Below the pieces are notes generated by a model. The model was not told the DNA's origin, did no database searches, and saw only the letters and a program-made list of their open reading frames with translations. A stretch of 43,485 bases of DNA from Pelosinus propionicus DSM 13327 (lineage in GTDB: Bacteria; Bacillota; Negativicutes; DSM-13327): the NCBI RefSeq assembly GCF_900114615.1, contig NZ_FOTS01000044.1:1-43485 (forward strand), written 5' to 3'. The translations under genes were made by a program, and so were the position numbers. Numbering within the stretch: the stretch's first letter is position 1; every line of letters starts with the position of its first letter. Of this stretch, positions 3,941-43,145 are shown piece by piece.

Positions 3941-4900
3941 TTATATTGATAAGATTTGAGATAAATTATACATTTCGTGATCAAATACTTTTCTTTTGGT
4001 AAGTGCCTCCATCATATCAATATCTATTAAACGATTATCTTTTATGCCAATTGCACGATTGGATTTTCCTTCGATTAATAGGTTAACAGCCTTAGCACCC
4101 ATTTTACTTGCCAGGATTCGGTCAAAAGCTGTTGGAACCCCGCCCCGCTGTAAATATCCAAGTACCGTAACCCGTGATTCAATCCCTGTAATAGCAAAAA
4201 TCTCTTTTTGCAGTTCTACTGCAGCTTCCCTGCCTTCAGCTAATATAATAATATTATGAGCTTTTCCCCGTTTTTTTCCCTGTAAGATTTTCTCACAAAT
4301 CTTAGTTACCTCATATTTCTCTTCAGGGACTAAAATACTTTCTGCTCCACCTGCAAGACCCGCATAAAGCGCAATATCCCCGCAGCATCTTCCCATCACT
4401 TCAATAATGGTTACCTTCTCATGAGACATGGATGTATCCCTTATTTTACTGATAGAATCTAGTACTGTATTAATGGCTGTATCAAAACCAATGGTATAGT
4501 CGGTGTATGCTAAATCATTATCAATCGTACCTGGAATTCCCGCTACTTTTATACCGGCACAACTAATTTTATTGGCTCCCTGAAAAGAACCGTCTCCGCC
4601 AATTACAATCAAACCATCAATTTGATTTCTTTCTAATACACGAATTGCTTCATTAATACCCGCGTCTGCTCTCATTTTTTCACATCTGGAAGTTTTAAGA
4701 ACGGTTCCGCCCCTGTGAATAATATCTCCTACAGACGCGATATCCATTTCTTTCATCTCACCATCTAAGAGCCCCGTATAACCTCTTTGGATACCAACAA
4801 CCTTAAGATTGTGATATATGGAGGTTCTCACAACAGCTCGAATAGCGGCATTCATACCCGGGGCATCCCCTCCACTGGTTAATACTCCTATTTTTTTCAC
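3941..4900 (-). CDS. pfkA: ATP-dependent 6-phosphofructokinase (copy 1)
   Basis: A 319-residue bacterial PfkA that makes fructose 1,6-bisphosphate from fructose 6-phosphate and ATP. The start KKIGVLTSGGDAPGMNAAIR carries the nucleotide-binding glycines. VIGGDGSFQGA has the GGDGS signature of ATP-dependent enzymes, and GIPGTIDNDL carries the catalytic aspartate. EVMGRCCGDIALYAGLA and the sugar-binding segment near the C-terminus (YLQRGGVPTAFDRILAS) are also present. The start is GTG 4898-4900 with GGAGAAGGAG upstream. It is the last gene of the polyol/pentose-phosphate operon, where it would draw off the fructose 6-phosphate made by transketolase. A second copy lies at 20144-21106; the two are clearly diverged paralogues. 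Confidence 0.95.
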   Translation of the reverse strand: MKKIGVLTSGGDAPGMNAAIRAVVRTSIYHNLKVVGIQRGYTGLLDGEMKEMDIASVGDIIHRGGTVLKTSRCEKMRADAGINEAIRVLERNQIDGLIVIGGDGSFQGANKISCAGIKVAGIPGTIDNDLAYTDYTIGFDTAINTVLDSISKIRDTSMSHEKVTIIEVMGRCCGDIALYAGLAGGAESILVPEEKYEVTKICEKILQGKKRGKAHNIIILAEGREAAVELQKEIFAITGIESRVTVLGYLQRGGVPTAFDRILASKMGAKAVNLLIEGKSNRAIGIKDNRLIDIDMMEALTKRKVFDHEMYNLSQILSI

Positions 4901-11402: not shown

Positions 11403-12659
11403 TTAATGAAATAGTGTGAATATTTTGTATATCACATAGTGAATTACGTTACCGCCTTGGTCAATACTAGAAATTGTAGTTGCGCCTGCTGGCATTTTAA
11501 AATGTGCATCGATTGCCATTTGCGTATGGAATGTTGCAACATCAGTCGCCATATACAATGACATCCCAATTACAACAGCCCCAACAAGAACCGAATGAAC
11601 GATGTTACCTCTAGCTGCTCCTACAATAAAGCAGACAATAAATGGAATTGTTGCTAAATCACCAAAGGGTAATACATTATTTCCTGGTAGAACAACTGCT
11701 AAAAGGATTGTAATTGGAACTAAAATTAAGGCAGTTGCGATTACGGAAGGATGCCCAATTGCAACTGCAGCATCTAATCCGATATAAATATCTCGATCAC
11801 CAAATCTTTTGCTTAGGAACTCCCGGGCAGATTCAGCAAGCGGGATAAGGCCTTCCATTAGGATCTTAACCATTCGAGGCATTAACACCATAACGCCACC
11901 CATTGCTATACCAACTTTTATGGTCTGCCCTGCTGGATATCCAGCCAGTGCACCCAGCACAACCCCTAAAAATACTCCCATGAAAAGCGGTTCACCAAAA
12001 ACCCCAAATCTTTTTTGTATGGTTTCAGGATCCGCATGTAAATCTTTAATAACAGGAATTTTCTGTACCAATTTCACAAGGGGAATCCCAATTGCATAAG
12101 ACACAGTACTGCCTGTAGGGACAGAAATACCTGGCAAATCAAAATATTTTTCCAGCATTGGTGCAGTCCAGTCAGCAATTTTTAAGACAATAATTTCAAA
12201 AATAACTGCTGCCACTAAACCTTGTACAAGACTTCCAGTTGCTGAATATACAAAGGCTCCCATAAAAGTGAAATGCCAATAATTCCAAAGATCGATATCC
12301 ATTGTTTTTGTGGTTTTGGTAACTAACATAATAACATTAACCAATAAACCTAAAGGAAGAACAAACGCTGCAATTGGAGAAGCCCAAGCTATACTTGCGG
12401 CTCCTGGCCAGCCAACATCAATGATGTTTAGCTGAACACCAAATCTTGCTACCATGCCTTGCGCTGCTGGCGCAAGATTTGAGACCAGTAAATCAACCAC
12501 TAAAAAGATACCTGTAAAACCTACCCCAATCGTCAAACCGGAGCGAAAGGCTTTACTTGCCGGCTGCCCAAAAGCTACTCCCAGCAGAAAAACTGCAACT
12601 GGCAAAATAACCGTTGGTCCTAGCCCTAGAAAGGCCTGGAAAATTTGAACTACATCCAT
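11403..12659 (-). CDS. PTS system, galactitol-type IIC component
   Basis: A 418-residue integral membrane permease of the galactitol (Gat) PTS family. It starts MDVVQIFQAFLGLGPTVILP and has about ten hydrophobic segments, with conserved blocks such as LFMGVFLGVVLGALAGYPAGQ and IYIGLDAAVAIGHPSVIATALILVP. It would carry a polyol across the inner membrane while IIB phosphorylates it. It lies 23 bases downstream of the IIB gene with a GAGGAGG site. Members of this family transport galactitol and several pentitols; the pentose-phosphate genes downstream point to a pentitol such as arabitol, ribitol or xylitol. Confidence 0.93.
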   Translation of the reverse strand: MDVVQIFQAFLGLGPTVILPVAVFLLGVAFGQPASKAFRSGLTIGVGFTGIFLVVDLLVSNLAPAAQGMVARFGVQLNIIDVGWPGAASIAWASPIAAFVLPLGLLVNVIMLVTKTTKTMDIDLWNYWHFTFMGAFVYSATGSLVQGLVAAVIFEIIVLKIADWTAPMLEKYFDLPGISVPTGSTVSYAIGIPLVKLVQKIPVIKDLHADPETIQKRFGVFGEPLFMGVFLGVVLGALAGYPAGQTIKVGIAMGGVMVLMPRMVKILMEGLIPLAESAREFLSKRFGDRDIYIGLDAAVAIGHPSVIATALILVPITILLAVVLPGNNVLPFGDLATIPFIVCFIVGAARGNIVHSVLVGAVVIGMSLYMATDVATFHTQMAIDAHFKMPAGATTISSIDQGGNVIHYVIYKIFTLFH

Positions 12660-12984: not shown

Positions 12985-13470
12985 TTATTCACCTCCTTTC
13001 ATATTGTTTAAATTAAGTCGTTTACTTACTTCTTCCTTGATTTTCACTTCACTTTCTTCTTTTGCTAAATATAGTAGAATCTCTTCATCTTGAAAGATTC
13101 CCATTAAACTTTGCAGCATTGTTAGCTGAGAGTGACTATCATGCATCGCCAGCATAAAAACTAATTTTACAGGAGTTCTTTCTGTTTCCTCACCCATAAT
13201 ACCAAACTCTACAGGCTTCTTTAATATGCCAACACTAATAGCGGATTGATTAACATGTTCAATATCGGTATGTGGTATGGCAACCCCACAGCCATTAGTT
13301 GGCAAGCCCGTTGCAAATTTTTTCTCTCTTGCAATAACTGCCTCAGCATAACTTTCTTTTACGTAACCTTTTTGATATAAGTTAGCTGCCATATGCTTCA
13401 AAATCTCTGAACTAGTTTCACCTTCTATATTTCTTATCACTAATGTTTCATCAAAATTAACATGATTCAT
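12985..13470 (-). CDS. PTS system IIA component (fructose/galactitol type)
   Basis: A 161-residue IIA protein of the PtsN/fructose superfamily. The phosphorylated histidine is His67 in CGVAIPHTDIEHV. The open frame extends to 13578, but ATG 13468-13470 matches family length and follows AGGGAGG. The first 14 bases overlap the 3' end of the regulator gene, so translation is probably coupled. It takes phosphate from HPr and gives it to IIB. Its domain is of the same kind as the C-terminal domain of the regulator encoded directly upstream. Confidence 0.92.
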   Translation of the reverse strand: MNHVNFDETLVIRNIEGETSSEILKHMAANLYQKGYVKESYAEAVIAREKKFATGLPTNGCGVAIPHTDIEHVNQSAISVGILKKPVEFGIMGEETERTPVKLVFMLAMHDSHSQLTMLQSLMGIFQDEEILLYLAKEESEVKIKEEVSKRLNLNNMKGGE

Positions 13471-16393
13471 GTAATAGAGCCTCCCTAATTTCATCTTCTG
13501 TTTTAGCTTGCTGCATTTGCGCAATAAATTTTTCACTTTTAAATTTGTTATATAAAAACCGTACCCCATCTTTACCATCGATGTCTAAGGCCAGCAAACA
13601 AATTAATGATACAGTATTCTCATGATCCCAATAAATTGGCGCTGCAGCTTTGGCAATTACAATTACGGGATGATTTACATAACTGCTGTCAGCATGGGGC
13701 AGAGCAACCTCTTGATTAATCACATAGCTTCCCATATTTTCTCGCTCCATAACAGCTTCATAATATCCTTCTTTTACATAGCCTTCTTCTAACAAGCTAC
13801 TACAAATACGCTGCAGTACTTCTTCCTTCCCGCCCACTTCCGGCAGCATGATAAATTTGGCCTCTCTCACAACGTGAGGGATGAGGCTGCTGTAACTTTT
13901 CATACGATAATGATTGTTACACTCAATTAAATTCATGATTTGATTTTTTCCTGTTTCGTTAAACAAAGTCTCTAAGGGTAAGAAAGGAATACCGTGATAT
14001 TTAGGATCAATACTGCCGATTATCGCAATGATCTCATAAGTATTAATCGTATCTTGTATTTGCTTATGAAGATCACGTTTTCCAATGACCCCCATATGAA
14101 TTAACTCAATGTCATTTAGCTTTTCACCAAATATTTTCTTTAAATGACTTCCGCATTGAAGTGCTACACCTTCTCCAGTCAAGCAAACTGTAATAATTGC
14201 TTTCTTTCGTTTCAAAACTTTATGATCGACTCGCGTTTTCTTAAAGGTGTAATTTAAATTTTCTACTGCATACACCACATCTTTAATATGGGATCCAGGT
14301 AATATACTTCTGCGAATTGCTTCAATTACCATTACGGTATCTACTCGGTCAATCGTCTCGATCTGGATACCTGTCCTTTCTGAAATAAGCTCTCCAAAGG
14401 TCAGCAACGACCCCATATCAACCAGCATTAAAACACCTTTACCTTCATCAGTTGCCTGTATGATCGTAGTCAAACGTTCTAACACTTCACTAGGACTCTC
14501 ATCTAAGGTCATAACTACCGCTTTTCCATGATTCATATTTAAAAGCTTATTTGCAATTTCCAGCATTCCAACACTTACATTGCCATGAGTAACAACCAGA
14601 ATACCAACTTTGCCTTCCTTTTCTTGTTTATTACCTCTAAGATAGAGTGCAATAAAACCAACCTCATCCTCCGGCAAATGAATTCTATAGTATTTTTCAA
14701 TATGCGCAATCATTTCTTGGGCTACAGCATATTCAAGACTGTATTTTCTTTTGATGTCTTCTAAGTTGGGATTAATAATTTCCCTTCCTTGCTTAATACG
14801 CTGAAAGGTTGCATTCAAATGAATGGCTAAGCAGTAAAATATAGAGTGATCCATTTTCCCTAATGTCATTTCAGCAATTTTAAGAAGCTCCTCTACTAGG
14901 GAAATAATTTCAACTCCCACGACTTTAGCAATCTCATCAGGAGATAAGGGATGCAAATTATCTTTAACATGTTTGATAACATTTTGTAATTTTCGTTCAA
15001 TCTCTATCCCGATAATTCGATTAATTTCTTCTGTATTTAGTCCTTGTTTTACATATTCCGTATAAGTTTTTTCAATATCGCTATAAAAATCTTTTGGAAA
15101 GCTATAAATATCGTTTTCAAGTTCAGCGATTTTTTTATATTTTTTAGGACTGAATCTAAAATCTTGCCAGACGAGGTTTTCAATTTCATCTCGCATGCTC
15201 TTTATTTTCAGAAGACCTTTTTTAACATGAAGATTTAAATCTCTTACATCAATTTTTACACAATCTTCTTTATCCATAACATAAGTTAGAAAGCTCTTGG
15301 CACAAGCTACTTGTATATCACTTTTTAGCTGTCCAATATTTCCATAACATTCATACATCAAGTAGGATTTCATGACATCTAAGGCTACATGAATTGGTGC
15401 ATTCATTCTCGTTGATTCATAACCAAAGAAATTCTTAATTAATTTCAATCTTTCATTTAAGGGACGTTTACTTAACGGCGGAACTTCAATAATCATTGGG
15501 ATTCGTCTTTTAAAAGTCGCTAATAAGGTTGTCTCAATATTTTCAGTAGTGGCGGCAATGAGCTGTACCGTTGCTTTTCTAGTAAAATCAGACTCACCTA
15601 GCCTGCGAAAACATCCCTTGTCAATGAGTTGAAACAGCATTTCCTGTCCTTCAGATGTAAGACGATGCACTTCATCCAAAAATAAGATTCCACCGTCTGC
15701 CTGCTCAATTAATCCTCTTTTATCCTGCGTAGCTCCTGTATAAGCACCTTTTACGCTTCCAAACAGATGTGATATCAATAATTGTGAGTTCTCAGCATAA
15801 TCCGCACAGTTGAAAACAATAAACGGAGATTCTTTAGCTAATCTACCGCTTTCGATAGAAAACTTGTACATCGACTCTGCTAACTCACTTTTTCCTACAC
15901 CTGTTTCTCCTAAAATCAAGCAATGTAAACCATTAGGAGGATATAATACTGCAGCCTTCGCTTGCTGTATCTGTATTTCTAAACTTCCATTCCCGCCGAT
16001 TAAATTTTGAAAAGCTTGAATTTCTTGAATCTCTTCTTGCTTTTTTACACCATTTTTCAACAGAGGAGCCTCATCTATGATCTGTTTATTACCTTGGGCT
16101 CCTTTAATTTCTTCTAAATATTTGACTACCAAGTAACGCGATAATTTATATCCGCTATTTTGCAGCATCTTAGTCAGTTCGCGATAGGAAATATTCTCGT
16201 TTTCCTGTAATATTTGGGATATTTCTTCACAAATATAGATCTTCTTTCGTTCTCGAGAATCTGCAATCTTTAATTCCTTACGCAGCAACGTCATGTATTC
16301 TCTGCTTACTAATAAACTTTCACCTAATTGCAGATCCGTTAGCGGTTCTTTCTTATTTTCTTTTGAAAGGATACTGCGGAGTTTATTTTTCAC
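13457..16393 (-). CDS. LevR/MtlR-like sigma-54-dependent PTS activator with C-terminal EIIA domain
   Basis: A 978-residue enhancer-binding protein. Residues 1-97 are a putative DNA-binding region. Residues about 130-370 are the AAA+ domain with Walker A GETGVGKS (162-169), sigma-54 contact loop GAYTGA (216-221; usual form GAFTGA) and Walker B GGILFLDE (234-241). A PTS-regulation domain follows (about 480-590, His525), then a mannose-type EIIA domain (His603 in VTHGN), a Gat-like EIIB domain (Cys737 in CLTGEG) and a fructose-type EIIA domain (about 850-975, His900 in ALPHAD) where LevR normally has a second PRD. The GTG start at 16391-16393 follows AGGAGGG. A consensus -24/-12 promoter sits 25 bases upstream, so the protein probably activates its own polyol PTS operon. 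Phosphorylation of its PTS domains would tie activity to substrate flux. Confidence 0.93.
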   Translation of the reverse strand: MKNKLRSILSKENKKEPLTDLQLGESLLVSREYMTLLRKELKIADSRERKKIYICEEISQILQENENISYRELTKMLQNSGYKLSRYLVVKYLEEIKGAQGNKQIIDEAPLLKNGVKKQEEIQEIQAFQNLIGGNGSLEIQIQQAKAAVLYPPNGLHCLILGETGVGKSELAESMYKFSIESGRLAKESPFIVFNCADYAENSQLLISHLFGSVKGAYTGATQDKRGLIEQADGGILFLDEVHRLTSEGQEMLFQLIDKGCFRRLGESDFTRKATVQLIAATTENIETTLLATFKRRIPMIIEVPPLSKRPLNERLKLIKNFFGYESTRMNAPIHVALDVMKSYLMYECYGNIGQLKSDIQVACAKSFLTYVMDKEDCVKIDVRDLNLHVKKGLLKIKSMRDEIENLVWQDFRFSPKKYKKIAELENDIYSFPKDFYSDIEKTYTEYVKQGLNTEEINRIIGIEIERKLQNVIKHVKDNLHPLSPDEIAKVVGVEIISLVEELLKIAEMTLGKMDHSIFYCLAIHLNATFQRIKQGREIINPNLEDIKRKYSLEYAVAQEMIAHIEKYYRIHLPEDEVGFIALYLRGNKQEKEGKVGILVVTHGNVSVGMLEIANKLLNMNHGKAVVMTLDESPSEVLERLTTIIQATDEGKGVLMLVDMGSLLTFGELISERTGIQIETIDRVDTVMVIEAIRRSILPGSHIKDVVYAVENLNYTFKKTRVDHKVLKRKKAIITVCLTGEGVALQCGSHLKKIFGEKLNDIELIHMGVIGKRDLHKQIQDTINTYEIIAIIGSIDPKYHGIPFLPLETLFNETGKNQIMNLIECNNHYRMKSYSSLIPHVVREAKFIMLPEVGGKEEVLQRICSSLLEEGYVKEGYYEAVMERENMGSYVINQEVALPHADSSYVNHPVIVIAKAAAPIYWDHENTVSLICLLALDIDGKDGVRFLYNKFKSEKFIAQMQQAKTEDEIREALLHESC

Positions 16394-16417: not shown

Positions 16418-16435
16418 TTGCAAAACCCGTGCCAA
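16418..16435 (-). promoter_or_regulatory. Sigma-54 (-24/-12) promoter of the polyol PTS operon
   Basis: Read on the minus strand this is TTGGCACGGGTTTTGCAA. It contains TGGCAC-N5-TTGCA and matches the accepted consensus YTGGCACGRNNNTTGCW at every fixed position. Transcription would start near 16408, leaving a leader of about 15 bases that includes the regulator's ribosome-binding site. The product of the first gene is a sigma-54 activator, which supports the call. Confidence 0.88.
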
Positions 16436-16755: not shown

Positions 16756-19701
16756 TTACTCTTCTTCTACATTATTCTTTCGTCGCTCCATTTTGATAAT
16801 CTCAATCAGATGACATATTTCTTCATCGTTTACATTCACTGAAAATTGTTCTTCTAAGGCATTGCTTACTTTTTTTAACACTGAATATTCAAGAGGATGC
16901 TCAGCAATAAATGCAGTGGTTTCTGGATAACTGATTTCAGCATGTGTAAGCAAGCGTTCCACCATGCAGGCAGAATGTACTAACATACGTACTAGTCCAG
17001 AAGAAGAAAATTCCACTTGCAGTTCATCTTCTAGTTTTCTAATGCAGATCATAAGCGTATCCATCACTTTACGCGGATTAACAAATGTTAAAAATTCATC
17101 TAACATTCCTGCAACCATACCACGCATCACCTCCCAATCCATCCCCCTGTCTGTATAGCGATCTGCAATATCGGAGGCTTTTAACCCTTCCGTAAGTAAA
17201 CGGCGCAGTTCACTTCCAGCCCCTCCTTGTATGAGCTCTTCGATGGCAATATGCGGTCTATCCTCCATTTGAGGATCAATACTGCCGACGCTAGCTACGA
17301 TATTATAAGAATGCTGCAAAGATATCAGGCGAGTTTGCAATGTTTCCAAATTACCAGCTTCTACCGCAATTACACGTATATTAAATAGCTGCCACTGGTT
17401 CAATAATTTTTCCAATAGGCCCTTAATTTTGGCGGCTGCTCCCTGGCCTGTAAGACAAGTAGTCAAAATAGCCTTATCCTTACCATTCATAAAGTCAGTC
17501 GGATTATTTGCCTGTACTTCTCTTTGAACCATACTGCGTGCTGTCCAGGCAGACCGATACACAATAGTAATATCATTTTTCGGTAATATTGCTTTATGTA
17601 ATACATCCAGTACCATTAAAGTACTTACCATTTCTACACTTTTTACCATGATGCCCGTGCGATTTGTAAGAGCTTTCGCTACACCCGATAAAGAGCCCAT
17701 ATCAACCAATAAAACTATGCCTTTTCCCTGATCAATTTCTTTCGCCACCTGGACAGCTTTTTCAATCACCCAATCTACATTGGCCTCTAACGGCATATCA
17801 ATTGCCTTGGCATGAGTAACTCCTAGCAGCTTATTAGAAAAATCCACCATACTGGTAGCAGTGGATTTACCATGTGTAATTACTAAAACTCCGACTTTTC
17901 GCTCTTCTCTGCCTTGGCGGTCGTCAAAGGTTGCCAGCATTAAAGCAATAAAACCGATTTCGTCCAAAGGAATTAAAATCCCCATCTGGTCACCAATGCA
18001 TTGTGCCATTTTTTCTGCAACAAGATATTCCTTAGGGTGCTGTTCCGCTACAGATCTGACATTAGGATTTACAATAGGCAGCCCGCTGCGAATGCGCTCT
18101 ACGGTAGCAGCAATATGAATGGCTAAGGCATAATATAATCTACGGCTCAGTGCTTTTCCCATTTTTTCGGCTAGGCTGCAGGCTAGGTCAAAAACACTGA
18201 GAAATTCTTGTGGCAATACACTTTGTAAATATTCCTGGGATATTTCCAGCTGTTCAGGACCTAGGCGCTGGAAATAGTTTTCAAAATCCATCTCAATGCA
18301 TTGAATAATCTCTGCCTGTCCAATTCCTTGGGACTTAAGAAACTGCATGCGCTCGCTAATGGTCTGATAGAAATTCTTTGGCAAACTTCGATCTGCTTCT
18401 TCATCCGCCGCTACTCCATTCGGCTGAATAAACAACTCACTGCCTAATGTACATAAAATTTTACTAGTCTCCAAACGAGCTTGAGGATCATATACAATTG
18501 CTTGTTTAATCTTAGGCGGCAACTCTTCATAAGCCAGACGAACTGGCGCGTTCTTATCTCCTCGATGTAAAAAAGCTTTCGCACATATTAGCTGCAAATC
18601 ATTGCGCAGCTGCCCAATATTGCCTTGACAGCGGTATAACAGCAATGCCCACAAAGCTTCTTGGCTTACAATTAACTTGGCTTGAATATGTACGGCTTCC
18701 CGTGCTAATAAAAATTTTATTAATTCAAATCGTTCATGTAATGGTCTGCTGGCTAAATCAGGCAGTGAAATGACCACAGGTATACGGCGCAAAAAGGTTT
18801 TTAATAAAGCCGAATCTGGATTTTCGGTAGTAGCTGCTACTACTCTTATGGTAACATGACGAATCTTATCAGTATCCCCCATACGACGAAAATCTCCACG
18901 ATCCAGTAGATAAAATAGCATTTCCTGCCCTTCTGGCGGCAAACGATGTACTTCATCTAAGAATAACATACCGCCATCAGCTTTTTCTACTAAGCCGGCT
19001 TTATCTTTATCCGCCCCAGTAAAAGCGCCACGTACATGTCCAAAAAGCTGAGACATTAAAAGTTGAGGATTGTTTGCATAGTCTGCACAGTTAAATACGA
19101 TAAACTGTCTTCCATGGACAATTTTTCCCTGACTGCAAGCAAATCGATACATATATTCAGCAAATAAGGTTTTTCCGACACCAGTAGAACCAACTAATAG
19201 TGTATCTAAGCCTTTTGGAGGGTAAAGAACTGAAGCCTTTGCTTGCTCAACTGCGACTTTTAAACTATCTTGAGCACCAATTAAACCATCAAAAGAGTCA
19301 TAATTCTCAGCGTTATTATAGAGGACATTATCATTTTTAAAGTGAGAGGCATCCGTTATCTCTCTTCCCTTTTCTGATTGGGAACTTTCATTCGCAGCTA
19401 ACTCTTCAATTTGCCGCTGGTGCCGTACCATTTCGGGAACCTTTCCTTTCAAGACAGGATAGATGCCTTCTACCCATTTCACTGTGACATAATAGGTAGA
19501 TCGACTTACTATTTTTGTTACCAATTTCTCCCGATGTAAAGCATTTAAATCGCTGCTAATATTACTTCGAGAAAATCCCGCCAAAACCGCCATTTCTTCT
19601 GCAGTAAAACCTAATGGTTTATGCTGCTGCATCATATTCTTATCTAGCTTTTTCATGCACAATTCATCTAAAATTTCTAAAATTTTTAATTGACGTTTCA
19701 T
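16756..19701 (-). CDS. LevR-like sigma-54-dependent PTS activator (classic two-PRD layout)
   Basis: A 981-residue enhancer-binding protein with the full LevR order. It has an N-terminal winged helix (about 1-85, with FTAEEMAVLAGFSRSNISSD), then an AAA+ domain with Walker A GSTGVGKT (171-178), GAFTGA (225-230) and GGMLFLDE (243-250). PRD1 (His529) follows, then mannose-type EIIA (His610 in VITHGKS), Gat-like EIIB (Cys749 in CLTGQG) and PRD2 (about 850-975, His909). ATG 19699-19701 follows AGGAGAG. It has its own vegetative-type promoter and a terminator on each side, so it is monocistronic. The nearby operon of mannose-type IIA/IIB, HPr, EI and Pfk has a -24/-12 promoter and is the obvious target. 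PTS phosphorylation of PRDs is known to set activity in LevR; here it is inferred. Confidence 0.93.
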   Translation of the reverse strand: MKRQLKILEILDELCMKKLDKNMMQQHKPLGFTAEEMAVLAGFSRSNISSDLNALHREKLVTKIVSRSTYYVTVKWVEGIYPVLKGKVPEMVRHQRQIEELAANESSQSEKGREITDASHFKNDNVLYNNAENYDSFDGLIGAQDSLKVAVEQAKASVLYPPKGLDTLLVGSTGVGKTLFAEYMYRFACSQGKIVHGRQFIVFNCADYANNPQLLMSQLFGHVRGAFTGADKDKAGLVEKADGGMLFLDEVHRLPPEGQEMLFYLLDRGDFRRMGDTDKIRHVTIRVVAATTENPDSALLKTFLRRIPVVISLPDLASRPLHERFELIKFLLAREAVHIQAKLIVSQEALWALLLYRCQGNIGQLRNDLQLICAKAFLHRGDKNAPVRLAYEELPPKIKQAIVYDPQARLETSKILCTLGSELFIQPNGVAADEEADRSLPKNFYQTISERMQFLKSQGIGQAEIIQCIEMDFENYFQRLGPEQLEISQEYLQSVLPQEFLSVFDLACSLAEKMGKALSRRLYYALAIHIAATVERIRSGLPIVNPNVRSVAEQHPKEYLVAEKMAQCIGDQMGILIPLDEIGFIALMLATFDDRQGREERKVGVLVITHGKSTATSMVDFSNKLLGVTHAKAIDMPLEANVDWVIEKAVQVAKEIDQGKGIVLLVDMGSLSGVAKALTNRTGIMVKSVEMVSTLMVLDVLHKAILPKNDITIVYRSAWTARSMVQREVQANNPTDFMNGKDKAILTTCLTGQGAAAKIKGLLEKLLNQWQLFNIRVIAVEAGNLETLQTRLISLQHSYNIVASVGSIDPQMEDRPHIAIEELIQGGAGSELRRLLTEGLKASDIADRYTDRGMDWEVMRGMVAGMLDEFLTFVNPRKVMDTLMICIRKLEDELQVEFSSSGLVRMLVHSACMVERLLTHAEISYPETTAFIAEHPLEYSVLKKVSNALEEQFSVNVNDEEICHLIEIIKMERRKNNVEEE

Positions 19702-19730
19702 TTTTCGCTCTCCTTTAAGACAGCATAAGC

Positions 19731-19894
19731 TAGTAGTTCGCCAAGACTAAAGCTATGGGATGAATGGCGCGAGATTTTTCGTCCAGCAAGGCGGAGGAGC
19801 CGCGCATATCGGACATATGTAAGGTGACGACAACGAAGCTGGGCGGGAAATCTCGCGACAAGAGCACCATGGATTTAGGCTTGGTGGACTACTA
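19731..19894. repeat. 164-bp element with 28-bp inverted ends and inner inverted repeats
   Basis: The left end (19731-19758: TAGTAGTTCGCCAAG, then ACTAAAGCTATGG) is an imperfect inverted copy of the right end (19867-19894: CCATGGATTTAGG, then CTTGGTGGACTACTA). About 23 of 28 positions match. Inside, GGCGCGAGATTT at 19766-19777 faces AAATCTCGCGAC at 19848-19859. The core is markedly richer in G+C than its surroundings and encodes nothing. The architecture fits a non-autonomous mobile element or dispersed structured repeat. It lies between the promoter and the start codon of the LevR-like gene, so it would be transcribed as part of the 5' leader. Confidence 0.65.
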
Positions 19895-19908
19895 GTCATT
19901 TCTAATAC

Positions 19909-20143: not shown

Positions 20144-21106
20144 TTACTTGGACAATAACGTTGCCAGCCGAAAGGTAGAGGTATCAATAGTCCGTTTATG
20201 TCCAATGGCATCGGCTAAATCGATTGCAACGACTGCACCATTTTTCGAACCAAATAATACATTGGAGATGCCCGAAATCAGTGCCATCACAGCATGCTCT
20301 GCTAGTGTACTAGCTAAAATGCGATCAAAAACACTCGGGGATCCTCCTCGTTGTATATGCCCTAATACTGATACTCGAGTATCAAGACCAGTATCCTTAG
20401 CAATCTTGTCACCAATTGTTACGGCGCTGCCTACACCTTCTGCTACAACTACAATGCTGTATTTTTTCCCTGTATCCCGAGACTTGCTTAGCTTGGAGCA
20501 CAATTCATCTAAATTTACAGTCATTTCTGGAATCAAAATCTGCTCTGCACCACCAGCAAGTCCGGCTGTCATAGCAATCCATCCTGAGTTTCGTCCCATT
20601 ACTTCAAGAACCATTACCCTTCCATGTGAAGAGGCTGTATCCCGCAGCTTATTAATCGCTTCTACGACTGTATTGATAGCAGTATCAAAGCCGATAGTAT
20701 AATCAGTTCCCCAAATATCATTGTCAATCGTACCAGGCAAACCAACGACAGCAATCCCTAGCTCTGATAACAACTGCGCACCTGTAAGAGATCCATCGCC
20801 ACCAATAATAATTACACCTTCAATTCCTCGGCGTTTCAGATTTTCAGCAGCTTTTTGACGGCCTTCCAATGTTTTAAAGACTTCACAACGTGCAGTTCCT
20901 AAAAATGTTCCTCCACGATGCAGAATATCTCCTACTGAACGAGATTCCAATTTTATCATGTTATCTTCATACATGCCTGCATAGCCATTGTAAATTCCCC
21001 ATACTTCTACCCCTTCATGGATAGCCACACGAACAACAGCACGAATGGCTGCATTCATACCAGGAGAATCGCCACCACTAGTCATGACAGCAATACGCTT
21101 TAACAT
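20144..21106 (-). CDS. pfkA: ATP-dependent 6-phosphofructokinase (copy 2)
   Basis: A 320-residue PfkA. LKRIAVMTSGGDSPGMNAAIR, IIGGDGSLTGAQ, GLPGTIDNDIWG (catalytic Asp), EVMGRNSGWIAMTAGLAGGA and HIQRGGSPSVFDRILAS are all canonical. The frame is open to 21175, but ATG 21104-21106 (or the adjacent ATG at 21107-21109) gives the normal N-terminus and lies 5-8 bases after AGGTGG. It is the last gene of an operon that otherwise encodes PTS phosphotransfer proteins, 20 codons or less from enzyme I once the leader is counted. Coupling Pfk to HPr and EI puts the main glycolytic gate and the PTS phosphate supply under one sigma-54 promoter. It is a diverged paralogue of the copy at 3941-4900. Confidence 0.95.
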   Translation of the reverse strand: MLKRIAVMTSGGDSPGMNAAIRAVVRVAIHEGVEVWGIYNGYAGMYEDNMIKLESRSVGDILHRGGTFLGTARCEVFKTLEGRQKAAENLKRRGIEGVIIIGGDGSLTGAQLLSELGIAVVGLPGTIDNDIWGTDYTIGFDTAINTVVEAINKLRDTASSHGRVMVLEVMGRNSGWIAMTAGLAGGAEQILIPEMTVNLDELCSKLSKSRDTGKKYSIVVVAEGVGSAVTIGDKIAKDTGLDTRVSVLGHIQRGGSPSVFDRILASTLAEHAVMALISGISNVLFGSKNGAVVAIDLADAIGHKRTIDTSTFRLATLLSK

Positions 21107-21194
21107 CATACATTCCACCTTTTTCTTGCTACTTCTCCAGAAAGGGCGAAGAATGCTCTTTCGCCCTACTTTCATTAAGATATTCTACGAAATC

Positions 21195-22907
21195 TTAGAT
21201 TTCATATGCTGAGGCTATTTCCTCTAGCCTTTTCTTAATATCAGCCGCAGTGCGCAGACCTAATATATCATCAGCCCATTTTTCCGTCTGTTTAATGTCA
21301 AGTTGACGTATGCGATGTTTGACTACTGGAACCGCCCGGCCATTCATAGATAATTCAGTTAAACCAAGTCCCACTAATAACGGAGTCGCTAGAGGATCCC
21401 CCGCCATTTCACCGCACATGCCTACCCATTTGCCAGCTTTTTTTGCCGCTTTAGCTACATTGCCAATTAAGCGAACTACTGGCGGCTGAAAATAATCACT
21501 CAGATATGCCACATGTTCATTCATACGATCTGCTGCCATTGTGTATTGAACAAGATCATTAGTACCAATGCTAAAAAAGTCTACTTCTTCTGCCAAAATA
21601 TCTGCAATCGCAGCTGCTGCCGGAACCTCAACCATAATCCCTACTGCCACATCACTTTTAAAGGGAACTCCTTCTTGTGTTAATTCTTCAGCCGCTTCTT
21701 TTAATAAGGCTTTTGCATTTAACAATTCATCTACAGTAGCAATCATTGGGAACATTATATGCAAGTTTCCTGCTACACTTGCGCGCAACAAAGCACGTAA
21801 TTGCGTTTTAAATACATCCTGGTACACCATACATAAGCGAATAGCTCGTAATCCAAGAGCCGGATTTGCTTCTGGCAATCCGCCAATAAAAGGCAGCTGT
21901 TTATCTCCGCCAGCATCCAGAGTACGAATTACAATCTTCTTATCAGGCATTGCCGCAAGAACGGCTTTATAAGATTCAACTTGCTCTTCTTCTGTTGGTA
22001 CACTGGTTTTATCTAAAAACAAAAACTCAGTACGGAATAGACCTACGCCTTCTGCACCCGCAGCAATTACTTTTTCCATATCCCCAGGTGTTCCAATATT
22101 ACAAGCCAACTCAATGTGATGACCATCTGTTGTTTCACTGGGTAAATGGCCTACAGATGCTAAAAGTGCAGCTCTTTCCTGCTCATTCTTAATACGCAAG
22201 CGATAGTCACTTAATACATCCTCCTCAGGATTCACCAAGACCTCTCCCACGTGCCCATCAACAACCACTGTATCTCCATTTTTCAGCTTCTCTAATGCGC
22301 TGCCAACCCCTACAACAGCAGGAATTCCTGCTGCTCTAGCCAAAATGGAGCTGTGAGAAGTCTTTCCTCCTAAAGCAGTAATGAAACCTGATACACAATT
22401 TAAATCAAGAGCAGCGGTATCAGAAGGCAGTAAATCCTGAGCTGCCAGAATACCTGTATAGTTGACTTCCGCTGTTCCCCCCTGTAATATTCTCACTAAG
22501 CGTTTGCCAATATCCTTAATATCAGCTGCTCTCTCCTGCATATATTCACTATCAAGACCAGCAAACATCGCAGCAATTTCATTTGCTGCATCTTCTACTG
22601 CTGCTTCCGCACTAGCCTGATTATCAAGATGATTTAAGACAACTTCGACAAAAGAAGGATCTGTAACCATTAACTTATGAGCAGCAAAAACTTCTGCTTG
22701 CTGCTCTCCCATCGTTGCTGCTGTACGTTCTTGTAAGATCTCTAATTCTTTTTCAGCAGCCTGCTGCGCTGAATAAAAACGTTCTTTTTCAGCTGGGGTC
22801 TGTGATGCATCTACCTGGCGACAGAAATCATGTACCGCCTCTTGCATATGCATAATTTCTCCAATAGCAATTCCTGCTGAAGCTGCAATTCCTTTAATTT
22901 TCCACAT
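21195..22907 (-). CDS. ptsI: PTS enzyme I (phosphoenolpyruvate-protein phosphotransferase)
   Basis: A 570-residue enzyme I, normal length. The phosphorylated histidine is His185 in GGKTSHSSILARAAGIPAV. The C-terminal PEP-binding barrel shows EGVGLFRTEFLFLD, GGDKQLPFIGG, DFFSIGTNDLVQYTMAADR and MCGEMAGDP with the catalytic cysteine. It transfers phosphate from phosphoenolpyruvate to HPr. I start it at ATG 22905-22907 (MWKIKGIAASAGIAIG), with GGAGAAGAG overlapping the end of the HPr gene four bases away. An in-frame extension to 22934 overlaps HPr and is not family-like. This may be the cell's only enzyme I or a system-specific one; the window cannot tell. Confidence 0.96.
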   Translation of the reverse strand: MWKIKGIAASAGIAIGEIMHMQEAVHDFCRQVDASQTPAEKERFYSAQQAAEKELEILQERTAATMGEQQAEVFAAHKLMVTDPSFVEVVLNHLDNQASAEAAVEDAANEIAAMFAGLDSEYMQERAADIKDIGKRLVRILQGGTAEVNYTGILAAQDLLPSDTAALDLNCVSGFITALGGKTSHSSILARAAGIPAVVGVGSALEKLKNGDTVVVDGHVGEVLVNPEEDVLSDYRLRIKNEQERAALLASVGHLPSETTDGHHIELACNIGTPGDMEKVIAAGAEGVGLFRTEFLFLDKTSVPTEEEQVESYKAVLAAMPDKKIVIRTLDAGGDKQLPFIGGLPEANPALGLRAIRLCMVYQDVFKTQLRALLRASVAGNLHIMFPMIATVDELLNAKALLKEAAEELTQEGVPFKSDVAVGIMVEVPAAAAIADILAEEVDFFSIGTNDLVQYTMAADRMNEHVAYLSDYFQPPVVRLIGNVAKAAKKAGKWVGMCGEMAGDPLATPLLVGLGLTELSMNGRAVPVVKHRIRQLDIKQTEKWADDILGLRTAADIKKRLEEIASAYEI

Positions 22908-22911
22908 AGTA

Positions 22912-23175
22912 TCACTCTTCTCCAAATTTGTCATCCACTAATTTTTTCAAGGCTGCACCTGCCTCAGCAGCATCTGGACCATCAATTTTGACAAGTAAAG
23001 TATCACCTTTCTTTACCCCTAAGCCCATGATACTAATGATACTTTTTGCATTACCGTTTTTTCCCTCTTTAAATATTAAAATATTAGATTTAAATGAGGA
23101 AGCTTTTTGTGCGAACATAGCTGCTGGTCTAGCATGAAGCCCTGCCTGATTTTTAATTTGTAAATTTAATTCCAT
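22912..23175 (-). CDS. ptsH: Phosphocarrier protein HPr
   Basis: An 87-residue HPr. The active histidine is His14 in NQAGLHARPAAMF, and the regulatory-serine region is NAKSIISIMGLGVKKGD with Ser45, the equivalent of Ser46 phosphorylated by HPr kinase in Firmicutes. ATG 23173-23175 has AGAAAGG upstream; a TTG at 23187 would add four residues and is less likely. It links enzyme I to the mannose-type IIA gene product two genes upstream and probably to other IIAs, including the polyol system. A serine at the kinase site implies it can also work in CcpA-type catabolite control. Confidence 0.95.
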   Translation of the reverse strand: MELNLQIKNQAGLHARPAAMFAQKASSFKSNILIFKEGKNGNAKSIISIMGLGVKKGDTLLVKIDGPDAAEAGAALKKLVDDKFGEE

Positions 23176-23238
23176 GTTTTTACACAACCTTTCTTTTTGT
23201 TAAGTATATTATTACACTACAATAGCAGTGGATACCCC

Positions 23239-23715
23239 TTAATTGATCTTTCCCATAAGATCTAATGGAACATCATGAGGCAATTGTTGGATTTGCAACT
23301 TAAGGCCCTGTTCATGAAGTTCTTTGAAAGCTTGTTTGTCTGTAGCTGATATCGATACAGCTTTTGTCACTACGGTCTTTCCTTTGCTGAAACTCATCCC
23401 ACCAATATTGACCTTATTAATCACTAAGCCATTTTCTACTAATGTCAATATAGCAGCAGGGCTGGTAACTAATATAAGCAACTTTTCTTTTGCAAATGCA
23501 TCTGTTCTCAAACTTTCGATCCCTTGCAGTACATTTAAGATTGAAACAGCGATACCAGGAGGTGCTACAGCTTCAAAGAGCATCTTGCGAATGGAGTCTA
23601 GCGCAACCTCGTCATCAATCACAACAATTCGTTCGATTGTTATCGCCTTGCACCATGCCATAACAATCTGTCCATGAATAAGGCGATCATCAATTCTTAC
23701 TAATTCAATTCCCAC
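23239..23715 (-). CDS. PTS system, mannose/fructose/sorbose-type IIB component
   Basis: A 158-residue IIB of the mannose family. The phosphorylated histidine is His14 in IDDRLIHGQIVMAW, and the rest (VVIDDEVALDSIRKMLFEAVAPPGI, VNIGGMSF) is canonical. The GTG start at 23713-23715 directly abuts the TAG stop of the IIA gene, with GGAAGAG upstream. In ordinary systems IIB hands phosphate to a sugar on a IIC/IID membrane pair. No IIC or IID gene follows here; HPr comes next after 63 bases. It may serve a permease encoded elsewhere or act only as a regulatory phosphate carrier for the LevR-like activator. Confidence 0.93.
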   Translation of the reverse strand: MGIELVRIDDRLIHGQIVMAWCKAITIERIVVIDDEVALDSIRKMLFEAVAPPGIAVSILNVLQGIESLRTDAFAKEKLLILVTSPAAILTLVENGLVINKVNIGGMSFSKGKTVVTKAVSISATDKQAFKELHEQGLKLQIQQLPHDVPLDLMGKIN

Positions 23716-24132
23716 CTAATCTCTTCCTTCTACTATCGTTACTTCATTAAACACCAAATCACGAATACCATCATGACCGCCTTTTAAAGCAGCACTTGCT
23801 ACATTCATCAATTTATCATTTCTGACAGGTAAAATTTCTAGCAGCATGGACACATTAACACCAGAAATCATTTCAATCCCTGGCTGCTGCATAGTTACTA
23901 TAGCTGCTGCATGATAAGGGCTTCCTCCTAGTAAATCCACAAGAATTATAGCACCTTGACCTGTATCTACTCCTCTTATAGCTTCTTTAATGCGTAACTG
24001 CAAATCAGCTGTATTTTCTCCTATTGCAAAATCAAGAGATATAACTTGCTCCTGTTTGCCTGCAATCTGTTCTGCAGTAGTAAGTAAGGCACTCGCGAAA
24101 CATCCATGTGCAACAATTACCACACCAACCAT
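23716..24132 (-). CDS. PTS system, mannose/fructose-type IIA component
   Basis: A 138-residue IIA of the mannose family. The phosphorylated histidine is His9 in VGVVIVAHGCFA, and AIILVDLLGGSPYHAA is the conserved dimer/active-site block. ATG 24130-24132 follows GAGGACAC. It is the first gene of the operon behind a -24/-12 promoter. The EIIA-like domain of the LevR-type activator encoded 4.4 kb downstream is homologous to it. IIA would take phosphate from HPr, encoded two genes downstream. Confidence 0.93.
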   Translation of the reverse strand: MVGVVIVAHGCFASALLTTAEQIAGKQEQVISLDFAIGENTADLQLRIKEAIRGVDTGQGAIILVDLLGGSPYHAAAIVTMQQPGIEMISGVNVSMLLEILPVRNDKLMNVASAALKGGHDGIRDLVFNEVTIVEGRD

Positions 24133-24177: not shown

Positions 24178-24193
24178 TGCAATAATCATGCCA
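24178..24193 (-). promoter_or_regulatory. Sigma-54 (-24/-12) promoter of the IIA-IIB-HPr-EI-Pfk operon
   Basis: The minus strand reads TGGCAT-GATTA-TTGCA with C before it, differing from YTGGCACGRNNNTTGCW at one position only. Transcription would start near 24168, 36 bases before the IIA start codon. A LevR-type activator gene is encoded next to the operon. Confidence 0.82.
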
Positions 24194-24468: not shown

Positions 24469-24750
24469 CTATTTTTTATAAACTTCCCACGCTTCTGAAA
24501 CTCTCTTGCGATACGATTCCAAACGATTGGACAGTACCTTTTCTTCCCTACGCCCAGCTTCTATGGATAAATCATATAAACTATTATTCATAGCATATAT
24601 AACTGCTTTCATTAAATCGAATAAAGGATCTGTATTTGTTTCACTACCATCTGTCTTTTCCTGCAGTCCTTTAATTAGAGTAATGGCAGCAGCGACCTTC
24701 TCTTCAGGTAATTGCTGAATAAGTTCAACTAACTCGGTTTTCGAATTCAT
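24469..24750 (-). CDS. Hypothetical protein, 93 residues
   Basis: I do not recognise a family. The N-terminal part (about 1-32, MNSKTELVELIQQLPEEKV...) is an amphipathic helix pattern like that of many small regulatory or antitoxin-like proteins. A short linker rich in T, D and E follows, and the C-terminal half is charged and helical (RREEKVLSNRLESYRKRV). No cysteines, signal peptide or membrane segment. ATG 24748-24750 has GAGGAGA upstream. It lies 26 bases after the gene for the nucleoid-associated-type protein and shares its terminator, so the two are probably co-transcribed. Confidence 0.75.
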   Translation of the reverse strand: MNSKTELVELIQQLPEEKVAAAITLIKGLQEKTDGSETNTDPLFDLMKAVIYAMNNSLYDLSIEAGRREEKVLSNRLESYRKRVSEAWEVYKK

Positions 24751-24776
24751 TTTATATTCTCCTCATTTCTCTTAGC

Positions 24777-25844
24777 TTATTCTTCTTCATTAAAATAGAC
24801 TTTATAAAAGTGCATACCTCTTTCGTCGTCAAAGCCTCTTTCAATAAACTGCATATTACCAGTTTCCGTTGTAGGGCTTTTTACTTTAATTTCGATTTCA
24901 GTATCTAGTTTAATCATATTTTTAAATTTCTTTTTGATACTCTTTACTGCAGGAGTGGAAATCGTAAACCCTTCTGCAGGTACAAATCCTTGATTCACTT
25001 CATAATTTTGTTTATGCTCTATAAATTGCTCGATTAATTCCGGTTCTTTCACAACAGATTGTACAAAATCATCCAAATGGAATTGATTATGCTTATCAAA
25101 ATATGCAACTGCCTCATTGACAAATACTACCTGATCTTTTTTATCCGCTTGATATATTTCTCCATAAATATTTTCCGCAAAATCTCTGCACACCTGCAAA
25201 CAATTTTCTGTATGAAAATACTCATCCTGTACATTCGTCAGGCGCAAGAATTCATCCTTCCAATATAAGGCTTGATTATCTCCCTTATTTACTGCATCAA
25301 CAATCGCAACTCGATAACCATCTTCGGAGTTTACGTTAAAAATAATACATCCCTTATCCAACTTTTTAACGTTAATCCCTTTATCACTGCCAATCATAAA
25401 CTCATCTGCATATTTGGTTACTTTTAAGTACGTTTCTTTTTTTTCTGTCTTAAAAATACCAATTCCATCAGCTTTTTGATCATTGATTATACAATCTTTA
25501 AAATATGCCATATAAAATTCCCCACCCTTAATTTGCGGATGAGAAGATTTTTCATATAAATGTTTTAAAATGCTAATTGATTGTTCATAAAAAGTTTCAG
25601 GTTCTATAAATATGCTACTTACATACATATATAATTCGTTTAAATGAATATCGGTTTCATGAAAAAATTTATACAATACTTTTTCTTTAAAGGATGATAA
25701 AAAATATTTTAGCAACAGTTCTTCTACATTGCCATCTTTCATATCATAAGAACTTGGAGAAAGAAAAACACCTTCATCCCGCAGCTTATTTCCAACTTTA
25801 TGTATTACTAACTGTTCTAAACTCATACTTGAAAAATCAAACAC
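24777..25844 (-). CDS. Nucleoid-associated protein, 37-kDa (YejK/NdpA-like) family
   Basis: A 355-residue protein resembling the 37-kDa nucleoid-associated family (NA37). It has LEQLVIHKVGNKLRDEG at the N-terminus, a central block with FYMAYFKDC, DGIGIFKTEKKETYLKV and DKGCIIFNVNSEDGYRVAIVD, and a C-terminal part with FTISTPAVKSIKKKFKNMIKLDTEIEI and FYKVYFNEE. The family is found in diverse bacteria, where members bind nucleoid DNA; its exact job is unclear. Some relatives occur in mobile or defence contexts, but nothing here indicates that. The start is GTG 25842-25844 after AAGGATG. It is followed closely by the 93-residue protein gene. Confidence 0.8.
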   Translation of the reverse strand: MFDFSSMSLEQLVIHKVGNKLRDEGVFLSPSSYDMKDGNVEELLLKYFLSSFKEKVLYKFFHETDIHLNELYMYVSSIFIEPETFYEQSISILKHLYEKSSHPQIKGGEFYMAYFKDCIINDQKADGIGIFKTEKKETYLKVTKYADEFMIGSDKGINVKKLDKGCIIFNVNSEDGYRVAIVDAVNKGDNQALYWKDEFLRLTNVQDEYFHTENCLQVCRDFAENIYGEIYQADKKDQVVFVNEAVAYFDKHNQFHLDDFVQSVVKEPELIEQFIEHKQNYEVNQGFVPAEGFTISTPAVKSIKKKFKNMIKLDTEIEIKVKSPTTETGNMQFIERGFDDERGMHFYKVYFNEEE

Positions 25845-41155: not shown

Positions 41156-42844
41156 CTATAACTTAAACTTGCTGATGATTTCATTGAGTTCTTCTGCCAT
41201 TTTAGCTAAAGATTCCGCATTATTATTGATCTCATGCATGCTAGCACTTTGTTCTTCGGATGCAGCGGCTACCGTTTGTGCACTTGCTGCCGTTTCTTCA
41301 GCAACACCACTAATATTTTGAACATTTCCTACCATTGTCTGTGTTCCCTTTGCTGTTTCTTCAATCGCATGAGTTATTTGCGTAACTACTATTTTCACTT
41401 TATCGAGCTTATCAATAATAACTTTAAACCCTTTTTGAGTGTTGAATGTTACTTGTTTTCCAGCTTCTACTTCATGGTTACCTTCACTAACATGTAAAAC
41501 AGCATAATCAATGTCTTGCGTCATTTTTTGTATAATTTCACCGATATGGCGTGTTGCTTCAGCACTTTGTTCTGCCAATTTTCGGACCTCTTCTGCTACT
41601 ACTGCAAAACCTCTTCCAGCTTCACCAGCACGAGCAGCTTCAATAGCAGCATTCAACGCTAATAGATTCGTTTGACCTGCAATACTTTGTATAACTGTAA
41701 CAATTTCACGAATATTTTCAGATCCCTTCGCTAAGGAATTTGCCGCTTCTGTAATGCTAACCATTGATTTTGCAACCGTATCATTCTGTGTAACGATCTG
41801 CTCCAGTAAATTCATCCCTTGACTTGCTTCTTCAACAGCATTTTGAGTATTCGTATTCACTTCATAGGCATTAGAATTCATTTCCTCTGTACTTGCAGAA
41901 AGTTCCTGAATCGTAGCTGACATTTCAGTTATATTCGTTGTATTCTGGGACGATCCACTCGCAACTTCCGCTATCGTATTAGAAACAATTTCTGCTGCAC
42001 GCAATTGCTCTTCTACGGTTGCACTTAATTCCTGGCTTGATGCTGCCAGAGATTCAGAGTTTTGGCGTATTTGCCCTACTAGTGAACGTAATGCAGTTTT
42101 CATTTGGGACATTGAAATAATCATGTCACCGATCTCATCATTAACAGCAACATGCTGTTCAGTAGTTGTCAAATCAAAATTACTGATTGCATCCATTTCA
42201 TTACGAACTCGATGCAAACGTTTCGCCATATATTTGCTATACCAGTATGCTAAACTACAAACAAATAGTATAATAAGCACGCTTAAAATTTCAACCAAAT
42301 TCTTAGTATCCTTTTGTTCCTGCAAGAGCTTATCCGTTGATTGTTTTAAATATTTTTCTTCTAACTGAAAGGTTGTATTAAATTGCAGATCAATCTGTTG
42401 TGATAAATTTCTACCTTCCGTAAGCAACGTATCAAAAGAAGGGCTATTTGCCTTTTTAGCATCCATAAGCTGTCCCATTTTAAGACTATAATCATCCATC
42501 ATCTTTTCTAGTTTAACAGCTTCTATTTTCACTTCTGGATTCTTCACACCCGATACAAATACTTTTAAGTCTTTTGCGCTATCATCGAATTTTTTTCTGG
42601 AATTTTGTTCATAGCTGCTGATTGAGTAAGCCATAAATCCTCGCAGCTCAGCAATTCCACTATGCATACCATCCTGTGCCTTGGTCAGTAAGAGCATATT
42701 AGCAGAGGTATGTGTAATTAAATTTTCATATGTATCGCTTGCTGTCGAATACTGATATGCTGTATATCCAAGTAATATAAGCAGAAAGGAAATAGAAGTG
42801 AGGAACATGCCTCCTAATTGTGCAACAATAGGTATTCTACGCAT
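41156..42844 (-). CDS. Methyl-accepting chemotaxis protein
   Basis: A 562-residue chemoreceptor. The first transmembrane helix is about 11-31 ([22 protein letters not shown]). A four-helix-bundle-type periplasmic sensor spans about 35-185, the second helix about 186-207 ([20 protein letters not shown]), then a HAMP domain. The cytoplasmic signalling domain has the highly conserved hairpin tip [20 protein letters not shown], then [20 protein letters not shown]. Glutamine/glutamate methylation regions flank it. No pentapeptide tether. ATG 42842-42844 follows AAAGGAG. The ligand is unknown. Its leader contains a c-di-GMP riboswitch, so receptor synthesis is tied to the motile/sessile second messenger. 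Confidence 0.95.
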
Positions 42845-42918: not shown

Positions 42919-42960
42919 GCCAGATTGTTACATGAACAATAATTCATATAGCAACCTGGC
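42919..42960 (-). terminator. Riboswitch-overlapping intrinsic terminator before the chemoreceptor gene
   Basis: GCCAGGTTGCTATATGAA (42960-42943, minus strand) pairs with TTCATGTAACAATCTGGC (42936-42919) at 17 of 18 positions, counting two G-U pairs, with a six-base loop and TTTTCTT after it. The 5' arm is the conserved 3' part of the aptamer, so the two structures exclude each other. Confidence 0.8.
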
Positions 42961-43030
42961 AGACATAGATCTACAATCATTAGTCCCATAGCTTTGCGTC
43001 CTTAACTTTCGCTAAGTTTGCCGACTATTA
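42943..43030 (-). ncRNA. Cyclic di-GMP-I (GEMM-I) riboswitch
   Basis: On the minus strand the leader shows the GEMM-I landmarks in order: CGGCAAAC, a GCGAAAG tetraloop hairpin, GGACGCAAAGCTA, GGGACTAA, a variable hairpin (ATGATTGTAGATCTATG), then GCCAGGTTGCT. GGCAA at the 5' side can pair with TTGCT at the 3' side to close P1. The GNRA loop and GGACGCAAAGC are hallmark sequences of this class. It precedes a chemoreceptor gene, a classic c-di-GMP target. A weak promoter (TTTAGA-N17-TAATAT) can be seen just upstream. Confidence 0.88.
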
Positions 43031-43145
43031 AACATTATTGGATTTATATATTAGTAATTCTCCTCAAAGCTCTAAAATCCTCTAAACTAAGACAAATAAA
43101 CCGACGAACAGTCGATTCTTTACATCTGATCTTTTAAATAAAGAA

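Follow-up and report, generated by a model that had tools for sequence, protein, structure and literature searches.

A mannose-type phosphotransferase operon of Pelosinus propionicus that has probably lost its permease genes and may retain IIA and IIB as a regulatory relay

The window analyzed here is a 43,485-nucleotide stretch of the genome of Pelosinus propionicus DSM 13327 (contig NZ_FOTS01000044.1; genome G000 among those compared below). It contains an operon of the phosphoenolpyruvate (PEP):sugar phosphotransferase system (PTS) that encodes mannose-type (Man-type) IIA and IIB proteins, HPr, enzyme I (EI) and 6-phosphofructokinase (Pfk), followed by the gene for a LevR-type sigma-54 activator, here called LevR2. 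The genes lie on the minus strand in the order IIA, IIB, HPr, EI, Pfk and LevR2, as follows.

24178..24193, minus strand: sigma-54 (-24/-12) promoter-like site TGGCATGATTATTGCA, 61 nt before the IIA start.
23716..24132, minus strand: mannose-type PTS IIA (PF03610, E 4.4e-24; TIGR00824, 101.5 bits, cut-off 98.35).
23239..23715, minus strand: mannose-type PTS IIB with a GTG start (PF03830, E 4.2e-48, far over its cut-off).
23188..23238, minus strand: IIB-HPr gap of 51 nt, the place of IIC and IID in relatives.
22912..23187, minus strand: HPr (PF00381, E 3.9e-28).
21195..22934, minus strand: PTS EI (three PEP-utiliser domains; TIGR01417, 631 bits).
20144..21106 (start approximate), minus strand: ATP-dependent Pfk (PF00365, E 1.5e-114; TIGR02482, 408 bits, cut-off 371).
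16756..19701, minus strand: LevR2, downstream of Pfk (AAA+, PRD1, EIIA-Man, EIIB-like and PRD2 parts).

The presumed phospho-histidines of IIA (H9, in VAHG) and IIB (H14, in RLIHGQ), which we take to be the phosphorylated residues, are unchanged in 11 of 11 operon orthologues. HPr carries the GLHARPA histidine and the KSIISIMGLG serine site, both motifs being read by eye. The Pfk reading frame is open to 21175, and an ATG there lies about 23 codons too early as judged from orthologue starts. A sigma-54-like site scoring 14 to 16 was found 55-63 nt ahead of IIA in all 11 orthologous operons; by comparison, the whole window has five sites scoring at least 14, both strands counted, or about 0.02 per 400 nt. 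The genome encodes sigma-54 (G000:C63) and HPr kinase (G000:C90). Domain searches and the conserved site agree with an earlier interpretation made from the letters alone (the sequence-only reading), which had described this operon behind a sigma-54 promoter and beside a LevR-type activator. That reading had also found no Man-type IIC or IID in the window. Indeed, no Man-type IIC was among the family matches on the window's contig, and 14 IIC/IID query proteins gave no match at E <= 1 in the window's 673 open frames of at least 30 aa, IID being recognized by similarity only, without a family search. The 51-nt gap between IIB and HPr could hold no more than a scrap of either gene. The operon thus does not encode IIC and IID together with IIA and IIB, as a Man-family transporter would, and its IIB scores 149.8 bits on TIGR00854, under the curated cut-off of 163.6 for Man-family membership.

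LevR2 has the make-up of a LevR-type activator. Its AAA+ domain (PF00158, E 1.5e-41) carries GAFTGA at residue 225, and Pfam recognizes PRD in two stretches (best 511-590) and EIIA-Man at 604-703, while the EIIB part, without a Pfam match, was placed by position and by TTCLTGQG; the resulting order is the LevR-type one of PRD1, EIIA-Man, EIIB-Gat-like and PRD2. An AlphaFold2 model of the C-terminal half (mean predicted local distance difference test score 64, predicted template modelling score 0.33) shows a bundle, two alpha/beta parts and a second bundle. Foldseek pairs the modelled EIIA part with 3gx1 and 3gdw (E 2e-5 to 8e-5), and the bundles match the LicT PRDs 1tlv and 1h99 (Z 14.9; root-mean-square deviation 18.2 and 11.6; Foldseek E 0.011 and 0.017) at values close to levels reachable by unrelated helical models. 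The candidate phosphosites are H529 (PRD1), H610 (EIIA-Man), C749 (EIIB-like) and H909 (PRD2), of which H610 and H909 are invariant in 11 aligned orthologues (alignment columns H131 and H430). They are the likely counterparts of H506, H585, C718 and H869 of Bacillus subtilis LevR, as listed in the part of the source consulted (PMC10864463), having been matched by motif and order. Membership in the DagR family (NF047795) was rejected, LevR2 scoring 559 bits and the neighbouring LevR1 478 bits against a curated cut-off of 1400.

To compare operon structure, the window was set beside 20 fetched EI neighbourhoods, nine from other genomes of the family and 11 from the top of an EI ranking of 250 class genomes (197 with a match). 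The order without IIC and IID, with IIA, IIB and LevR2 retained, occurs in six genomes of the window's lineage (G000, G003, G004, G005, G007 and G009) and in G022, from another family. The closest named relatives by IIB, at 77-79% identity, are Pelosinus fermentans JBW45, P. fermentans UBA6563 and an uncultured Pelosinus. An assembly artefact was rejected, since the same order stands in six genomes, including the complete chromosome of P. fermentans JBW45. Conservation of the gene order, which the sequence-only reading had proposed to check, holds within the lineage but not in all relatives: G006 and G008 of the same genus, G002 of another genus of the family and G018 of another family carry the orthologous operon as IIA-IIB-IIC-IID-HPr-EI-Pfk, with IIC and IID placed exactly between IIB and HPr. 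LevR2 comes directly after this complete operon in G006, G008 and G018, whereas G002 has it on a separate contig. A pair of IIC and IID controlled by the same activator, which had been named as the observation that would count against a sensing circuit, is thus present in G006, G008 and G018, but not in the operon of the window. In G018, EI and Pfk form a single open frame of 921 codons (L080:9392-12154).

The complete operon is probably ancestral, and IIC and IID were probably lost in the window's lineage rather than relocated, because one clade (95/90) unites the IICs of all four complete operons and follows the EI tree, branching in the order G018, G002 and G006 plus G008, and the window-lineage IICs stand outside it. 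Of the 36 IICs found in 14 genomes, 30 are in the tree; the six omitted, for which no locus was fetched, include two of the window's lineage (G003 and G004), both beside a IIB. None of the 14 IICs placed in the tree from the six window-lineage genomes (16 IICs) joins the operon clade. The nearest to it (G003_284k, G003_987k and G007_C200) fall in a sister clade, which is paralogous because G006 and G008 hold a sister-clade IIC besides the operon copy. Transfer of IIC and IID to another place in the window's genome was rejected as well, all three IICs of that genome being in the tree and far from the operon clade. Read most simply, these trees imply that IIC and IID disappeared at least twice, in the window's lineage and, separately, in G022. 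The operon could conceivably have passed from one family to another, since support is weak both for the position of G022 in the EI tree (78/78) and for that of G018 in the IIB tree, and several of the branches are long. Further reduced forms were seen in G001 (HPr-EI-Pfk without LevR2, IIA or IIB at the locus, and without a good sigma-54 site ahead of HPr, the best scoring 10) and in G089 (EI-Pfk without IIA, IIB and LevR2). Five genomes are incomplete (G005, G007, G009, G001 and G002; 83 to 89%), and the absence of Man-type genes in G001 may be partly due to this.

Selection on the retained genes was estimated with a branch codon model (our own script) on nine taxa. The ratio of nonsynonymous to synonymous substitution rates (dN/dS) of IIA plus IIB was 0.223 in the permease-less lineage and 0.108 elsewhere (likelihood ratio test statistic, LRT, 12.05), and a neutral foreground was rejected (LRT 180). 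Adding G018 and G022, with G022 assigned to the foreground, changed these values to 0.207 and 0.083 (LRT 20.7); with G007 and the stem shifted to the background, they were 0.226 and 0.136 (LRT 6.8), and neutrality was again rejected (LRT 120). The control genes Pfk (LRT 0.04) and HPr (LRT 0.89) showed no shift. For LevR2, the LRT was 2.8 for the whole protein, 0.03 for AAA+, 2.0 for EIIA, 0.0 for EIIB and 4.7 for PRD2, whose dN/dS in the permease-less lineage was 0.047, with neutrality rejected (LRT 213). The columns dropped were IIA beyond codon 119, IIB codon 1 and those beyond 150, the first 4 HPr and first 25 Pfk codons, and LevR2 beyond 975; EI was omitted because the G002 copy is interrupted by unknown bases, and pairwise estimates gave no value (saturated dS) for six pairs, of IIA, IIC and IID. 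Decay of IIA and IIB to pseudogenes is not supported by these models, and both proteins appear still functional. Their loss of about half their constraint upon the loss of IIC and IID suggests a missing membrane partner.

The presence of the operon IIB goes together with that of PRD2, its presumed target domain in LevR2. An orthologue of LevR2 (scores of at least 800 bits versus at most 568 for the rest) was found in 12 of 380 class genomes, 11 of which have the operon IIA and IIB and a full-length LevR2 with its EIIB and PRD2 parts. The twelfth, G117, provides the decisive case: it has HPr-EI-Pfk, behind a sigma-54-like site of score 15 ahead of HPr, but has no operon IIA or IIB, and its LevR2 stops behind the EIIA domain, so that the EIIB and PRD2 parts are missing. 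A hairpin-like stretch was read by eye behind the stop codon of this shortened LevR2.

Taken together, we consider it reasonably likely that IIA and IIB survive as a phosphate relay to LevR2, in a regulatory role. In known LevR, as described in the part of the source consulted, phosphorylation of the EIIA domain by HPr~P activates and phosphorylation of PRD2 by IIB~P inhibits (PMC10864463). By homology, phosphate would pass from PEP through EI, HPr and IIA to IIB; IIB~P would phosphorylate PRD2 of LevR2 at H909 and hold LevR2 off, and HPr~P would phosphorylate its EIIA domain at H610 and switch it on. Without a permease of its own, IIB would be discharged only back into the HPr pool. Because no such permease discharges it, IIB would report the general state of the PTS and not one sugar, tracking how far the HPr pool as a whole is phosphorylated, in other words the PEP:pyruvate ratio and the total drain by all PTS sugars. 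The flow of any PTS sugar would lower IIB~P, free LevR2 and raise EI, HPr and Pfk, provided that some HPr~P is left. Such a feed-forward would be blind to the kind of sugar and would peak at intermediate HPr~P.

Several observations weigh against this relay. The roughly twofold rise in dN/dS means that IIA and IIB have lost part of their constraint, by the codon models, and a slow decay is conceivable; PRD2 is likewise less constrained than in relatives (0.047 versus 0.017, LRT 4.7). The link between IIB and PRD2 comes from a single genome, G117, which has five IIBs elsewhere. LevR2 also stands downstream of complete Man-PTS operons, so the logic may equal ordinary induction, and its control of the operon promoter is assumed from position.

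The first alternative keeps the orphan IIA and IIB in transport: they would phosphorylate the IIC/IID of a different Man-type system, alongside or in place of its own IIA and IIB, which would agree with the permease encoded elsewhere that the sequence-only reading had offered as its alternative. Such permeases exist: the genome holds three Man-type IIC/IID pairs outside the window, all with sigma-54-like sites upstream of their operons (scores 14-15), and cross-talk among PTS transporters is reported for B. subtilis in the part of the source consulted (PMC6148471). However, each pair has its own IIA, IIB and LevR-like gene nearby, its IIC lies far from the operon's IIC clade, and the operon IIA and IIB shed constraint when their own IIC and IID went. 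This self-supply appears general, as 35 of the 36 IICs, and each of the 16 in the six window-lineage genomes, have a IIB within 2.5 kb, and the operon IIB is the only one without a IIC partner in each of these six genomes. We regard service to another permease as unlikely.

The 12 unpartnered IIBs of the 14 genomes comprise those of the seven permease-less operons, three second IIBs adjacent to LevR genes, one near a contig end (G117) and one fragment (G008). The LevR-adjacent copies occur in G006, G022 and G008 (L178, L179 and L180), where a paralogous IIA-IIB-IIC-IID operon is followed by one more gene, which looks HAD-like by eye in G006 and G008, and then by the second IIB directly beside the LevR gene; the G003 version of this operon (L181) is without it. 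Such a second IIB may be another IIB dedicated to its regulator.

Another possibility is that IIA~P or IIB~P regulates a target other than LevR2, such as LevR1 of the adjacent GAT operon or another of the LevR-like proteins in the genome. The components concerned in the window are the following.

13457-16393: LevR1, second LevR-type gene, directly downstream of LevR2 (EIIA-Man and EIIA-2 domains).
12985-13578: EIIA-2 beside LevR1.
11403-12659: GAT-type IIC, of the other PTS permease family in the window.

The adjacency of LevR1, its EIIA-Man domain and the further LevR-like genes favour such a target. Against this, LevR1 has an EIIA-2 domain at the place of PRD2 in LevR2 and adjoins its own GAT-type components, and we judge another target to be improbable. 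The top-scoring sigma-54-like site of the window, TGGCACGGGTTTTGCA, lies at 16434 on the minus strand, just upstream of LevR1. Least probable of all, by a small margin, is that IIA and IIB are functionless leftovers kept because deletions in the operon are risky or recent, for although dN/dS is raised (0.22 versus 0.11) and the IIB branch of G022 is long, neutrality is rejected (LRT 180, and 120 with G007 and the stem outside the foreground), the open frames and both histidines are intact in all seven permease-less operons, and the genes were retained in two separate lineages.

Of the sequence-only reading, a regulatory role rather than import is the part that gains support, from the missing permease, the self-supplied IIC/IID pairs, the purifying selection on IIA and IIB and the shortened LevR2 of G117. 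The notion of a dedicated sensing circuit goes too far, as this is a reduced Man-PTS operon that most likely lost IIC and IID and that encodes the only full-length EI found in the genome. Because no other full-length EI was found, the operon copy presumably powers the other PTS importers of the genome too. The best explanation of the gene content and phylogeny is that this is the general-PTS operon of Pelosinus (HPr, EI and Pfk), descended from a complete Man-PTS operon under sigma-54 and LevR2. Elsewhere in the genome, an HPr paralogue, 74% identical to the HPr of the window, is followed by a free-standing EI piece (L147:4699-5386 on G000:C43; also L021-L024). This piece, of 138 aa and 39% identical to EI residues 1-151, stops before the phospho-histidine part and could be an HPr-binding decoy; the pair is present in G000, G003, G004, G005 and G009.

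No description of such an operon was found in the titles and abstract openings of the literature searched, but related systems are known. According to the part of the literature consulted, Listeria ManR is a LevR-type activator of the man operon and a target of the IIB of another PTS, EIIB-Mpo, and in this it resembles LevR2 as envisaged here. Mpo presumably still has its IIC and IID, which are gone from the Pelosinus operon. To our knowledge, the lev operon of B. subtilis lacks HPr, EI and Pfk. LevR/levDEFG resembles the system described here in its sigma-54 promoter and its activator with helix-turn-helix, AAA+, PRD1, EIIA-Man, EIIB-Gat and PRD2 domains, but lev retains IIC and IID and responds to fructose, its inducer, by way of its own PTS (PMC10864463, part consulted). 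The incomplete PTS of Brucella (EI-Ntr, NPr, EIIA-Ntr and EIIA-Man) is likewise a permease-less phosphorelay with a mannose-type IIA and a proposed regulatory role; the part of that source consulted gives no PTS permease and names no IIB or LevR among the PTS proteins (PMC2937029). In contrast, Pelosinus has IIB and LevR2, and its genome encodes other PTS permeases. Membership of the operon in PTS-Ntr was rejected, as its EI matches PEP-utiliser domains only (three, at E <= 0.001) and its IIA is mannose-type and not EIIA-Ntr. EI of PTS-Ntr is marked by an N-terminal GAF domain. Strain UFO1 and P. fermentans R7 both grow on fructose, glucose and mannitol according to the part of the source consulted (PMC6107796).

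Other features of the window adjoin or surround the operon. Before it (24469-25844) lie two genes, one for a 93-aa protein that matches nothing in Pfam or NCBIfam and the other for a 37-kD nucleoid-associated protein (NA37), both retained in eight of the 20 fetched neighbourhoods, all from the window's family. Between Pfk and LevR2 (19730-19895) is a 166-bp element with imperfect 58-nt inverted arms, which has eight matches in the genome including itself, two others being near full length at 90-92% identity, and which looks like a dispersed repeat resembling a miniature inverted-repeat transposable element. A second phosphofructokinase gene (3941-4900) lies near transketolase, RpiB-like and ribulose-phosphate epimerase genes, and a c-di-GMP-I riboswitch (42947-43032, minus strand) lies upstream of a methyl-accepting chemotaxis protein gene (41156-42844).

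PTS transporters have long been known as regulators, but the same IIB does both transport and signalling, which makes the two hard to separate. In this operon, evolution has seemingly stripped away transport and spared signalling, and permease-bearing sister operons in the same genus provide the controls. Whether Man-type IIA and IIB outlive their permease, at least twice in the class, as a dedicated, sugar-independent relay of the general PTS state to a sigma-54 activator that sets EI, HPr and Pfk is a broader proposal that we put forward tentatively, at slightly under an even chance. The operon would be a natural experiment that could show how IIB is read by LevR-type activators and how the cell sets the levels of the general PTS proteins and Pfk.

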